Assembly (NCBI RefSeq): GCF_003610785.1
Contig: NZ_RAQQ01000006.1
Span: 62,001-126,000 of the forward strand
Direction of reading: 5' to 3'
Length of the DNA stretch: 64,000 bases
Source: Micromonospora globbae
Lineage (GTDB): Bacteria > Actinomycetota > Actinomycetes > Mycobacteriales > Micromonosporaceae
Shown: one piece after another, positions 9,333 to 14,736 of the stretch
How positions within the stretch are numbered: position 1 is the first letter of the stretch
How the letters are laid out: the number at the start of each line of letters is the position of its first letter
Program-made: the position numbers and the translations under genes
Notes under the pieces: generated by a model
The model's input: the letters and a program-made list of their open reading frames with translations, nothing else
Told to the model about the DNA's origin: nothing
Databases searched by the model: none

Positions 9333-10172
9333 CTAGTTGCAGCGCTCCAGCAGTTGGACCGCGCGCCACCGCGCGACCAGCTTGTCGTACGCCGCCGACG
9401 CCTCCTCGGCCTCGCCCCGGGAGAGCCCCGCGAGACCGGCCGCCACCAGCTCGGGTGAGTCGTCCGCGGCGAGCGTCTCGTCGGGCAGCAGGTCCACGAG
9501 GCCGCCGTAGTCGAGTTCGACCACCGAACGGGGGTGGAACTCCTCGAGCCACCGGGCGGCCTCCTCGACCGCCTCGGTGATCGGCGCCTCGCCGACCGAC
9601 TTGCGCAGCACCGCGAGCGCCCGCGACGACCGCCGCCGCGCCTTGGAGATCTCCGTGCGGTAGCGCAAAGCCCGTCGCCCCGGCCGGGTGACCAGGTCCC
9701 GCTCCTCCGGGTCGAAGAGGACGAACCAGCGCAGCGGCACTCCCCACGTGGCGATCTGTTCGTGCAGCCGTGGCACCCCGTGCTCCAGCACCCGGGCGCC
9801 GCTGCGCCAGTCGTCCACGACCGCCTTGGCCTGCCCGGCGAGCACCGGGGGCACGAAGGCGTCGGCGAGCACCGAGGGCACGCCGTCGCGGGCGCTGAGC
9901 GCCGCCTCGGCCACCCGGATCCGCAGGTTCCACGGGCAGACGAGCAGCGTGTCGTCCGTCTCCAGGACGTACGCCTCCTCGGGCAGGTCCGGCAGGCGGG
10001 TCCAGCCGGCCCCCAGCGCCTCGATCACGGCCGTCCGTTGCCGGCCCGGCCCCTCCACGGGGGCCACCGCCCGCCCCTCCGACACGTAGCGACGCCAGTA
10101 CGACTGGCGGTCCCGGTCGAAGGCGGTCAGAGGCTCGTACACGCGCAGGTAAGAAGCGAAGAGCGACGGCAC
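9333..10172 (-). CDS. Conserved actinobacterial hypothetical protein (vdh-bldC neighbour)
   Basis: A 279-residue cytoplasmic protein with no domain I can name. It starts with GTG (MPSLFASYLRVYEPL). Recognisable conserved-looking blocks are FDRDRQSYWRRYV, YVLETDDTLLVCPWNLRIR, WGVPLRWFVLFDPEER and RYRTEISKARRRSSRAL. Charged helices dominate the C-terminal half. In Streptomyces coelicolor a hypothetical gene occupies the same position between vdh and bldC, so this is probably its orthologue. It is divergent from the amino-acid dehydrogenase gene. Confidence 0.8.
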   Translation of the reverse strand: MPSLFASYLRVYEPLTAFDRDRQSYWRRYVSEGRAVAPVEGPGRQRTAVIEALGAGWTRLPDLPEEAYVLETDDTLLVCPWNLRIRVAEAALSARDGVPSVLADAFVPPVLAGQAKAVVDDWRSGARVLEHGVPRLHEQIATWGVPLRWFVLFDPEERDLVTRPGRRALRYRTEISKARRRSSRALAVLRKSVGEAPITEAVEEAARWLEEFHPRSVVELDYGGLVDLLPDETLAADDSPELVAAGLAGLSRGEAEEASAAYDKLVARWRAVQLLERCN

Positions 10173-11424: not shown

Positions 11425-11729
11425 AAGACCTTCCCCCGGGGGCGGGCGGCCCGTCTCGCTCCCGGGGCCACGGGCGGCCGGCGCGGCCGTTAAGCTGGTT
11501 CTGGGATCAGTTCGTGCCGTTTTGCCCGGTGTCATGGGCGCTCACGCTTCCACCCCTTACCGGGTACACTGGGTGACGGCCGGACCACCGCGACGCGCAG
11601 TGCCGGCTGACGGTAACCCGAGGTGCCGAACGGTGGCATCCCCATGTACCGTAAGAGCCACGAGAGATGCCTGACGTCATCGGGGCCCGCCTTCGGGCTG
11701 CCCCGCATTCTGTGCGAGGGGGTCGAGCC
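11425..11729. promoter_or_regulatory. Intergenic region before the DUF3073 gene
   Basis: About 305 bases without a gene. The part near 11431-11466 is rich in C/G with CCCCGGGGG-type self-complementarity and may end the vdh transcript. Further on, TTGCCC at 11520 and TACACT near 11565 could be promoter elements, but I cannot fix a transcription start. No small protein with a good RBS is seen. Confidence 0.35.
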
Positions 11730-11945
11730 ATGGGGCGCGGCCGTGCTAAGGCCAAGCAGACAAAGGTGGCCCGGGAGTTGAAGTACCACTCCCCGAACAC
11801 CGACCTCGCCGCCTTGCAGCGAGAACTCGGCGGCAGCGGCAAGTCGAACCGCGACTTCGACGACGACTACAACGAGTATGTCGACGACGATGACGAGGAC
11901 CACGCGGACGACGACCCCGACACCTGGGTCCGTCCGACCCGCTGA
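11730..11945 (+). CDS. DUF3073 family protein
   Basis: A 71-residue protein with a basic N-terminus (MGRGRAKAKQTKVARELKYH), then SPNTDLAALQRELGG, and an extremely acidic Asp-rich C-terminus. This is the compact DUF3073 pattern, restricted to actinobacteria and of unknown function. The ATG at 11730 follows GAGGGGG. In Streptomyces a DUF3073 gene lies between vdh and purM; here the RiPP pair has been added between it and purM. Confidence 0.92.
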   Translation: MGRGRAKAKQTKVARELKYHSPNTDLAALQRELGGSGKSNRDFDDDYNEYVDDDDEDHADDDPDTWVRPTR

Positions 11946-11960
11946 CCCCCGGTCACATCT

Positions 11961-11986
11961 GAGCACGCGGTGAGCCCCGCGTGCTC
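11961..11986 (+). terminator. Stem-loop after the DUF3073 gene
   Basis: Perfect ten-base arms GAGCACGCGG and CCGCGTGCTC with a six-base loop, 16 bases after the DUF3073 stop. A likely terminator between convergent genes. Confidence 0.7.
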
Positions 11987-12022
11987 ACGCATGTGCTCGC
12001 CGGCAGCGGCGTACCGACCGAC

Positions 12023-12067
12023 GGTCAGGGGCCTGCCAGGCGCCACGCGCCGGACGGGCCCCTGACC
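12023..12067 (-). terminator. Stem-loop after the RiPP precursor gene
   Basis: Eleven-base arms GGTCAGGGGCC and GGCCCCTGACC flank a 23-base GC-rich loop, 15 bases beyond the stop of the precursor gene on the minus strand. Likely terminator of the radical SAM/precursor operon. Confidence 0.6.
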
Positions 12068-12081
12068 CCGGTGCCGCACCC

Positions 12082-12318
12082 TCAGCGGGGCCGGTTGTTC
12101 CAGTTGTAGAACGTCGGGATGTTCTCGAAGTGGTTCCAGGCGCAGACCGCGCCGCCACCACTCGCGCCCGCCACCTCCGCCCGGAGCCGCCGTGCGGTCT
12201 CAGCCTCGCGCAGCAGTGCGATGAGCCCCGGGGCGGCGTCCCGCACCCGCTTGGCGACACCGGCCGGGCTCGCACCCGCCGTGCGCTCAGGCTGCCGGTC
12301 ACTGGTGGTCTCGGGCAT
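12082..12318 (-). CDS. Candidate RiPP precursor peptide with multiple three-residue cyclophane motifs
   Basis: A 78-residue peptide: a hydrophilic leader with a helical segment (about residues 20-50, LIALLREAETARRLRAEV), a small-residue linker ASGGGAV, and a C-terminal aromatic/Asn-rich core from Cys59 to Arg78. The core has aromatic-x-Asn triads at F64-E-N66, F70-Y-N72 and W73-N-N75, plus W61-N-H63. Aromatic-x-Asn/Asp/Arg triads are the known sites where radical SAM/SPASM enzymes make three-residue cyclophanes. The ATG lies inside the end of the maturase gene, overlapping it by 20 bases, so translation is probably coupled. It may belong to the actinobacterial 'multiple cyclophane' AmcA-type precursors; that name is from memory. 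No dedicated protease or exporter is adjacent. Confidence 0.85.
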   Translation of the reverse strand: MPETTSDRQPERTAGASPAGVAKRVRDAAPGLIALLREAETARRLRAEVAGASGGGAVCAWNHFENIPTFYNWNNRPR

Positions 12319-13420
12319 GCTCCAACACTCCCTCCAGTAGGCGGATCTTGCTGTTGCGGCAGTGCTCGGTCTCCGTGCCGTCGAAGCGCCCCAGCTCGAA
12401 GTAGCGGTTCGCGGCGTGACCGCCGCCGCAGAACCCGAAGTAGGGGCAGGTGTCCCGGCACGCCTCGACGCCGGCGAGGAACTCGCCGACCCACGGCGTG
12501 CGCTCCGCGCCGGCCAGGATCTCGGCCAGCGGGCTCTCCAGCACGTTGCCGCTGCTGAAGTCGCCGTACCGGGGGTCGGTGAAGCCGGCCAGCTCCGGGG
12601 AGAGCACGGTCACCGACCCGTCGTGCCCGATCGTGGGGATCGGGTCCAGTTGGCGGGGCAGCAGGTCGTCCGCCACGCCGTCCAGGACCGCCGCGGCGTA
12701 CCGCAGGGACCATTCGATCTCGCGCAGGTGGATGCGGGGCTCCCGGCGCCACGCGGCCACCAGCTCGGCCCAGAACGCGGTCACGTCGGCCTGATCGTGC
12801 GCGTTGCCGCGCGTGTTGACCCCCTCGGTCTCCTCGATGTTGATGCCGAGCACGTCACAACCGAGGTCGAGGAAGTAGTCGTACAGCTCGGCGGCGAGCC
12901 CGGCCCGCGGCCGGGAGACGACGGCGAGCGCCGAGAACGGCAGGCCGCGCCGACGCAGCACCGACACCCCGCGCATGATCCGGTCGTACGCCGGCTGCCC
13001 GGCCCGGGTGACCCGGTCGTCGTTGCGCTCCCGTGGCCCGTCCACGCTCACGCTCACCCGCACCCCGTGCTCCTGGAAGAAGTCGCACCAGGCGTCGTCG
13101 ATGAGCGTGGCGTTGGTCTGCACGTGGTGCTCGACCTCGGGCGCGAACGGCGCCATCAGGGCCGCCAGGTGCTCCCGGCCGGCCGCCAGCGGCTCGCCGC
13201 CGTGCCACACCACCGAGAACCGGCCGGCCGAGGCCCAGGGGTTCACCGAGGCCGCCACCGCCTCGGCCACCGGCACCGGCATCCGCCGGTCGGCGGCGCG
13301 CAGCGGCAGGTAGCAGTACGCGCAGTCCAGGTTGCAGAGGGTGGTGGGCTGCATGACGACGTACGACGGGACGGCGGCCACGCCGCGCATCCCACCGACC
13401 GACTGTCCCCGAGCAGCCAT
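12299..13420 (-). CDS. Radical SAM/SPASM peptide maturase
   Basis: A 373-residue radical SAM enzyme predicted to crosslink the adjacent precursor peptide. The SAM/4Fe-4S motif is C29-x3-C33-x2-C36 (CNLDCAYCY), followed by the SAM-binding WHGGEPL and SVDGPRE. The C-terminal SPASM-type region carries C321, C325, C331 and C354 (CRDTCPYFGFCGGGHAANRY), expected to hold auxiliary clusters. This layout is that of peptide-modifying maturases of the cyclophane-forming group. The ATG at 13420 has the SD AGGGAGG. The gene opens a two-gene operon and is preceded by a 9-bp hairpin. No RRE domain is evident in the protein; the leader may bind the catalytic domain directly. Confidence 0.92.
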   Translation of the reverse strand: MAARGQSVGGMRGVAAVPSYVVMQPTTLCNLDCAYCYLPLRAADRRMPVPVAEAVAASVNPWASAGRFSVVWHGGEPLAAGREHLAALMAPFAPEVEHHVQTNATLIDDAWCDFFQEHGVRVSVSVDGPRERNDDRVTRAGQPAYDRIMRGVSVLRRRGLPFSALAVVSRPRAGLAAELYDYFLDLGCDVLGINIEETEGVNTRGNAHDQADVTAFWAELVAAWRREPRIHLREIEWSLRYAAAVLDGVADDLLPRQLDPIPTIGHDGSVTVLSPELAGFTDPRYGDFSSGNVLESPLAEILAGAERTPWVGEFLAGVEACRDTCPYFGFCGGGHAANRYFELGRFDGTETEHCRNSKIRLLEGVLEHARDHQ

Positions 13421-13435
13421 CGCCCTCCCTTGTGC

Positions 13436-13456
13436 GCCTGAGGGTGCCCCTCAGGC
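13436..13456. promoter_or_regulatory. Inverted repeat upstream of the maturase RBS
   Basis: Perfect nine-base arms GCCTGAGGG and CCCTCAGGC with a three-base loop, ending 16 bases before the radical SAM start codon and just upstream of its SD. It could terminate the purM transcript or act as an operator or leader hairpin. Three TGATCA hexamers (13487, 13503, 13517) lie in the same 100-bp gap. Confidence 0.55.
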
Positions 13457-13519
13457 TAGGCGGCGATGGCTACTCGGGTGAACCCCTGATCAGGTGCTCG
13501 TATGATCAGCGCAGAGTGA

Positions 13520-14674
13520 TCAGCCGCGAGTGTGCTGGCCGACCATCTGAACGTTCCCGGAGCCCTCGATGATCTCGCCGGCCTGCCACGCCTCGACGCC
13601 CCGACCGGTCAGCGTGGCCAGGGCGCGGTCCGCGTCCTCCGCCGACACGATGGCGAACATGCCGACGCCCATGTTGAACGTCGCCTCCATCTCCGCGTCC
13701 TCGATCCGGCCCTTCGACTGGATGAGGTCGAAGACCGGCTGCGGCCGCCAGGTGGAGCGGTTGACCACGGCGTCGACGTGCTCCGGCAGGATCCGCACGA
13801 GGTTGCCGGGGATCCCGCCGCCCGTCACGTGGGCCAGGGCGCGCACCTCGGCCTCGGCGATCAGCTTGAGGCAGTCCTGCGCGTAGATCTTCGTGGGCGT
13901 CAGCAGCTCCTCGCCGAGGGTCCGCTGCCGGCCGAAGTCGTCGATCACCACGTCGAGCCGCATCCGCCCCGCGCCGAGCAGGACGTGCCGGACCAACGAG
14001 TAGCCGTTGGAGTGCAGGCCCGAGGAGCGCATGGCGATCACCACGTCGCCCACCTCGACCCGCTCCGAGCTGAGGATCTCGCTCTCCTCGACCACGCCGA
14101 CACCCGTGGCGGAGATGTCGTACTCGTCCGGGCGCAGCACGCCCGGGTGCTCGGCCGTCTCGCCACCGAGCAGGGCGCAGCCGGCGTACCGGCAGCCGTC
14201 GGCGATGCCGGCGCCGATCTCCGCGACCTTGTCCGGCACGACCTCGCCGGTGGCGATGTAGTCCAGCAGGAACAGCGGCTCCGCGCCGCAGGCGACCAGG
14301 TCGTCGACGACCATGGCGACCAGGTCGATGCCGACCGTGTCGTGGATGTCCATCTGCTGGGCGATGACCAGCTTGGTGCCCACGCCGTCGGTCGACGAGG
14401 CGAGGATCGGGTTCTTGTACTTCTTCGTGTCCAGCCGGAACAGGCCCGCGAAGCCGCCCAGATCGCCGAGCACCTCCGGGCGCCGGGTCTGCCGCACCTT
14501 CGACTTGAGCAGTTCGACCGCGCGGTCGCCCGCCTCGATGGACACGCCGGCGTCCGCGTACGAGACCGAGCGTTTGCGCGCCTGGCGGCCGGTGCCGGCC
14601 GTCCAGGGCTGGCGGTCGCCGCCGGCTCCGGTCGGGCTGGTTCCTGCGCCGCTGCGCTCGGACACGTGCGTCAC
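13520..14674 (-). CDS. purM: Phosphoribosylformylglycinamidine cyclo-ligase
   Basis: AIR synthetase, 384 residues, closes FGAM to aminoimidazole ribotide with ATP. Visible are SYADAGVSIEAGDRAVELLK, the conserved STDGVGTKLVIAQ, GIDLVAMVVDDL, GGETAEHPGV and the C-terminal HVTGGGIPGNLVRILP. The GTG at 14674 with AAAGGGGAG just upstream gives a roughly 35-residue Gly/Arg-rich N-terminal extension of a kind seen in actinobacterial PurM. It is 62 bp downstream of purF and co-directional, so purF-purM form an operon. Confidence 0.97.
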   Translation of the reverse strand: MTHVSERSGAGTSPTGAGGDRQPWTAGTGRQARKRSVSYADAGVSIEAGDRAVELLKSKVRQTRRPEVLGDLGGFAGLFRLDTKKYKNPILASSTDGVGTKLVIAQQMDIHDTVGIDLVAMVVDDLVACGAEPLFLLDYIATGEVVPDKVAEIGAGIADGCRYAGCALLGGETAEHPGVLRPDEYDISATGVGVVEESEILSSERVEVGDVVIAMRSSGLHSNGYSLVRHVLLGAGRMRLDVVIDDFGRQRTLGEELLTPTKIYAQDCLKLIAEAEVRALAHVTGGGIPGNLVRILPEHVDAVVNRSTWRPQPVFDLIQSKGRIEDAEMEATFNMGVGMFAIVSAEDADRALATLTGRGVEAWQAGEIIEGSGNVQMVGQHTRG

Positions 14675-14736
14675 GGTTCTCCCCTTTGTGTTTCTCGGGT
14701 ACGACGCCGGTGGTGACCGGGCCGCACCCGGTGGTG

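Follow-up and report, generated by a model that had tools for sequence, protein, structure and literature searches.

What does the gene pair amcBA of Micromonospora globbae make, and why is it kept? The pair lies in a 64,000-nucleotide stretch of contig NZ_RAQQ01000006.1 (the window, in whose positions all coordinates are given), and consists of a gene for a radical S-adenosylmethionine (SAM) enzyme followed by a gene for a short peptide.

12299..13420, minus strand: amcB, radical SAM peptide maturase of 373 residues
12082..12318, minus strand: amcA, precursor peptide of 78 residues, matching NCBIfam NF041722 (AmcA_3a) at 116.2 bits against a cut-off of 65

The pair is an amcBA locus of the AmcA_3a type, a kind that has already been named. 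AmcA passes the cut-off of NF041722, the family of the "multiple cyclophane-containing RiPP AmcA" (RiPP, ribosomally synthesized and post-translationally modified peptide), and AmcB passes that of NF041718, "cyclophane-forming radical SAM peptide maturase", with 528 bits against 425. The pair is real and not a product of chance, because both proteins exceed family cut-offs and the pair recurs across the Micromonosporaceae. A preliminary description made from the DNA letters had proposed a multi-cyclophane RiPP locus and named AmcA/AmcB-type models for comparison, which these curated matches bear out. Its two open reading frames, which share 20 bases (12299–12318), agree with the re-checked positions, and the residues that it named match the translations: C29/C33/C36 and C321/C325/C331/C354 in the enzyme, and C59, W61-N-H63, F64-E-N66, F70-Y-N72, W73-N-N75 and R76-P-R78 in the peptide. 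A protein search with AmcA returned 1043 homologues at E ≤ 1; among the best 120 of these, many carry the NCBI name of the AmcA family, Micromonospora is the named source, and homologues are assigned to Pfam PF28164.

We give a probability of about 80% to the account that this AmcA_3a-type locus makes a peptide with three cyclophanes, was acquired once, and serves a fixed physiological role rather than that of a variable antibiotic. The AmcA/AmcB family was known already; the fixed site beside purM, the single gain and the invariant core are measured here. A literature search by title and abstract, whose coverage did not extend to the family's own paper, returned no account of the fixation of AmcA_3a in Micromonosporaceae.

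The number of rings is addressed by the conservation of the precursor, which divides into the following parts.

12175..12258, minus strand: leader residues 21–48, probable recognition helix (column conservation in 153 genomes; helix and role are predicted)
12085..12150, minus strand: core residues 57–78, AVCAWNHFENIPTFYNWNNRPR, probable mature region (core conservation in 142 genomes)
12121..12129, minus strand: triad 1, F64-E65-N66, predicted ring (FEN in 142 cores; FED, FSD or WTD in 11 variants)
12103..12111, minus strand: triad 2, F70-Y71-N72, predicted ring (FYN or FFN in 142 cores; FYQ, FYE, FWE or FTE in 11 variants)
12094..12102, minus strand: triad 3, W73-N74-N75, predicted ring (WNN in 142 cores; FTN or FSN in 11 variants)

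The core was compared in 142 of the 143 genomes that exceed the AmcA_3a cut-off. Residues 57–77 form one sequence in all of them, with Y71F, present in 15, as the sole change; the C-terminal end reads PPR or PSR in five. These cores, each 66 nucleotides long with the variant ends included, are encoded by 113 distinct DNA sequences. Over 1500 random pairs, the mean identity of the core is 98.8%, whereas that of 45 leader residues is 53%. The many DNA versions of a core with nearly fixed residues, next to a drifting leader, argue for very strong selection on the peptide. Within the leader, the columns of R24, L32, L35, E38, A39, A42, R43, R46 and E48 stand out.

Profile searches of fetched amc loci identified variant cores at the same chromosomal site in 11 genomes. 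Their forms are FED-FYQ-FTN and close relatives, FSD-FWE-FSN, and WTD-FTE-FSN, and the last 24 residues of each contain exactly three triads of an aromatic residue, any residue, and N, D, Q or E. Both C59 and W61-N-H63 are missing from all 11, seven of which retain a tryptophan ahead of the first triad. A twelfth variant core, a tail fused to AmcB in a metagenome-assembled genome (MAG) of Dactylosporangium, has two triads. Because the variants keep three triads while losing C59 and W61-N-H63, the predicted rings F64-x-N66, F70-x-N72 and W73-x-N75 are the best supported. The triads of the preliminary description are thus conserved across homologous cores as far as F-E-N, F-Y-N and W-N-N are concerned; its additional W61-N-H63 is lost in 11 of 11 variants.

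A fourth ring at W61-N-H63, which would turn the core into a nearly continuous ringed scaffold, is the strongest competing explanation, but an unlikely one. All 142 AmcA_3a cores have W61, N62 and H63; however, none of the variant cores keeps them, while all keep the three triads. Nine variants read WRP, WRA or PRP at this place, and in the two WTD cores, where the alignment is unsure, the tryptophan is itself part of a triad.

The site of the locus is defined by its neighbours on either side.

13520..14686, minus strand: purM, upstream neighbour (open frame with the true start inside; TIGR00878, 444.9 bits against a cut-off of 236.35)
11667..11945, plus strand: DUF3073 gene, downstream neighbour (PF11273; present in 39 of 39 fetched loci)

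Around the pair, family scans recognise purM, purF, DUF3073, an amino-acid dehydrogenase and BldC. An AmcA match served to select 39 loci, drawn from 29 genera, in which the queried neighbours were compared. AmcB is present in all 39, and AmcA is detected in 37 by tblastn and in 39 by profile. The dehydrogenase is retained in 38 loci, an unnamed protein encoded at 9333–10172 also in 38, and bldC in 37. In 33 of the 39, the first queried gene met upstream is purM, in the same orientation. Among the exceptions, L072 and L073 have the pur genes upstream but inverted, and the fetched pieces of L075, L090, L099 and L102 contain no purM. In L162 and L165, amc stays beside purM and the block from DUF3073 to bldC is inverted. 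The inversions in these four loci (L162, L165, L072 and L073) flip the pur genes or the DUF3073–bldC block, and amcB and amcA remain together. The unnamed protein has 279 residues and no Pfam or NCBIfam match, and its gene lies between those of the dehydrogenase and BldC.

The locus is a fixed, single-site chromosomal feature of one clade. Among 200 Micromonosporaceae genomes, AmcB exceeds its cut-off in 158 and AmcA_3a in 143 (149 at E ≤ 0.001, with one match each); neither does so in any of 14 control genomes. When AmcB is scored by genus at 1e-60, a count that includes loci of a related type, AmcA_1, 35 genera contain it (159 of their 162 genomes) and nine others do not (0 of 38 genomes). 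The 41 genomes without AmcB at this threshold therefore comprise those 38 and three from AmcB-bearing genera: G043, a contig-edge case that still shows AmcA and part of AmcB (L102), and G059 and G089, which are 82% and 86% complete. The precursor accompanies the maturase, as the preliminary description had anticipated, in that an AmcA_3a match is found in 148 of the 159 genomes with AmcB. Of the 11 others, seven were examined: in five, a variant precursor is encoded separately, next to AmcB at the purM site; in one, AmcB itself continues into a precursor-like tail; and in one (G041), the purM site is without the pair. The only pair seen in G041 is of the AmcA_1 type and lies elsewhere; its DUF3073 gene is adjoined by a gene for an amino-acid N-acetyltransferase (L346:3820-4284; NF005921, 255.6 bits against 180) and not by amc.

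Within the genus of the window, AmcA_3a is present in all 38 genomes of the family sample and in 62 genomes of an order-level sample, in which no genome of the genus is among the non-matches listed. The 397 order-level genomes contain no AmcA_3a outside Micromonosporaceae (68 matches, all within the family), and the 296 class-level genomes contain none outside the genus of the window (three matches, all in that genus). At least 77 public loci contain AmcA_3a, including those of Micromonospora, Salinispora, Actinoplanes, Dactylosporangium and Catellatospora, all five of which belong to Micromonosporaceae.

This distribution probably arose when an ancestor of most Micromonosporaceae acquired amcBA, a single time, between purM and DUF3073; the pair has since been kept. 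A tree built from two neighbour proteins, in which several inner branches are weak, shows a single change in the presence of amcB, a count independent of the root: the gene is there in 44 rows, and the 16 that lack it are all outside the group. The single change was repeated with 59 rows. In 37 genomes, AmcB distances correlate with those of PurM (r 0.80) and of the dehydrogenase (0.64), compared with 0.67 between PurM and the dehydrogenase. By contrast, AmcB agrees with these neighbours in 13 and 12 of 34 splits, and the neighbours agree with each other in 17. Because AmcB distances follow PurM yet AmcB agrees less in splits, its descent appears to be mainly, perhaps not purely, vertical.

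A single gain, a single copy and a core that has hardly changed while the leader drifts point to a physiological role, unlike that of a weapon under diversifying pressure. Judged from these sequence patterns, the product most likely acts inside the cell, or else has a part in development or signalling, and is less likely to be a variable antibiotic. The more specific proposal, that most Micromonosporaceae use a lineage-fixed peptide with three cyclophanes, gained once and preserved nearly letter for letter, for a conserved job that is internal, developmental or cofactor-like, is tentative, at somewhat less than even odds.

Several observations weigh against the account of a locus gained once and fixed for a physiological role. 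Nine genera of the family lack AmcB (0 of 38 genomes). No protease or transporter is found among the neighbours named by family scans, as the preliminary description had said of the block, and the open reading frame at 9333–10172 has no family match. The core type, furthermore, has probably moved between lineages. The type of the core, 3a or 3b, changes once on the AmcB tree and three times on the neighbour-gene tree. In an approximately unbiased (AU) test with nine variant rows per tree, the two sets being partly different, a constraint that groups the variants is rejected on the neighbour-gene tree (p-AU 0.018) but not on the AmcB tree (0.097). Enzyme and core may have been exchanged together at this site, which, given the weak branches, is a lead rather than a result.

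An antibiotic or bacteriocin directed against competitors is improbable, slightly more so than a fourth ring. Darobactin and dynobactin are bioactive cross-linked peptides of the same broad kind according to two papers (PMC11002830, PMC12026744), and the latter describes them as the only members of the wider group with well-understood activities. However, no exporter, protease or immunity gene is recognised at the amc locus, one core serves 142 genomes, and there has been one gain with no certain loss.

The radical SAM motif CxxxCxxC of AmcB is formed by C29, C33 and C36, which are invariant in a 36-row alignment, and the protein matches PF04055. A second conserved set consists of the C-terminal cysteines C321, C325, C331 and C354, and C112 is likewise conserved. 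A full SPASM domain contains cysteines for two auxiliary clusters. In AmcB, the positions aligned with the upstream cysteines of the anaerobic sulfatase-maturating enzyme (anSME) are not cysteines, and the SPASM label of the preliminary description therefore appears to be half right: a single C-terminal cysteine set is conserved, and the upstream auxiliary-cluster cysteines are absent. The structure model of AmcB has a predicted local distance difference test (pLDDT) score of 94.6, and RiPP maturases are among its nearest solved folds.

The leader of AmcA, about residues 21–48, would be bound by AmcB, and SAM would be cleaved at the C29/C33/C36 cluster. In each triad, the third residue would then lose a hydrogen at its beta-carbon, which would form a bond with the ring of residue one. 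The outcome would be three cyclophanes, F64-N66, F70-N72 and W73-N75, each with a loss of 2 Da, in a product core of about 22 residues beginning near A57. We infer the ring chemistry by analogy, and the cleavage point is a prediction. PMC11002830 describes enzymes of this kind as linking a carbon of Trp or Phe to the C-beta of the Asn two residues on; OscB forms C–C links of Trp with Asn or Asp and of Phe with Asn, and OscB, XncB and MscB may serve as analogues for the ring chemistry of AmcB. A radical mechanism is stated for triceptides in PMC12026744.

It is very unlikely that AmcB instead forms a thioether through C59, as in sactipeptides or ranthipeptides, since all 11 variant cores lack a cysteine at this place, the AmcA_1 cores inspected have none either, and the best family matches of the pair are cyclophane formers. 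That the conservation guards a DNA or RNA element at the 3' end instead of the peptide is least credible of all: some codons are fixed (only AAC at 66, 72 and 74), but the 142 cores are spelled by 113 DNA sequences and scarcely differ in their residues, and the window contains no Rfam match at the gathering score.

Transcription of the pair was approached by comparing the regions upstream of amcB.

13453..13482, minus strand: likely amcBA promoter, TTCACC-18 nt-TAGCCT, upstream of amcB (cross-genome comparison)

Of 124 such regions, 38 contain the looser motif TTNACC-N15-20-TANNCT, compared with an average of 0.05 when the letters are shuffled. The second half, CTAGNCTG, occurs in 66 of the 124 and is missing from 58; the shuffles give 1.19. 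Because the motif is enriched over shuffles, amcBA seems in many cases to be transcribed from a promoter of its own. A scan of 11900–13700 for generic promoter and terminator consensus sequences found nothing.

In a Dactylosporangium MAG (G033, L160:5525-6796), the AmcB frame continues into an AmcA-like tail ending in TYYNWNNRSR, which makes it a fusion of maturase and precursor. A single search found the full fused tail in only that one protein, and the fusion may be an artefact of assembly or decay. In a model of the fused protein, residues 399–423 have pLDDT below 50, and the docking mode of the core is not given. AmcB-like matches also occur in seven class-level genomes from three other families, five of them over the cut-off.

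Of the known systems, AmcA_3a/AmcB (NF041722/NF041718) is the one to which the genes of the window belong, and nothing excludes their membership. The second locus of the same genome, of the AmcA_1 type (L001:1301-2595 and L180; G000:C7), resembles it in an AmcB that exceeds the same cut-off with 556 bits, in a precursor that matches NF041721 (65.6 bits against 40), and in aromatic-x-N triads. However, it has a core of its own (FDN, WDN, FDS, WDN), its AmcB is 40–47% identical to that of the window, and none of the purM-site genes was found around it. It is followed by an open reading frame resembling pentapeptide-repeat proteins, under curated cut-offs. Triceptides, the products of GrrM/OscB and other formers of three-residue cyclophanes, share core triads of the aromatic-x-N/D type with AmcA. 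The GrrM/OscB family TIGR04261 is the second-best NCBIfam match of AmcB, but at 249.7 bits it is below the cut-off of 310. The solved RiPP maturases ChlB and SuiB are just 16–22% identical to AmcB in the best rows. The precursors of pyrroloquinoline quinone (PQQ) and mycofactocin have a short conserved core that yields a fixed physiological product and no antibiotic. Their likeness to AmcA is an analogy only. The single-copy, one-site locus with a nearly invariant core in 142 genomes offers a clean genetic handle on the use of the peptide to its producer. If its conserved job is real, AmcA would be a rare RiPP outside the PQQ and mycofactocin type that belongs to a core genome.
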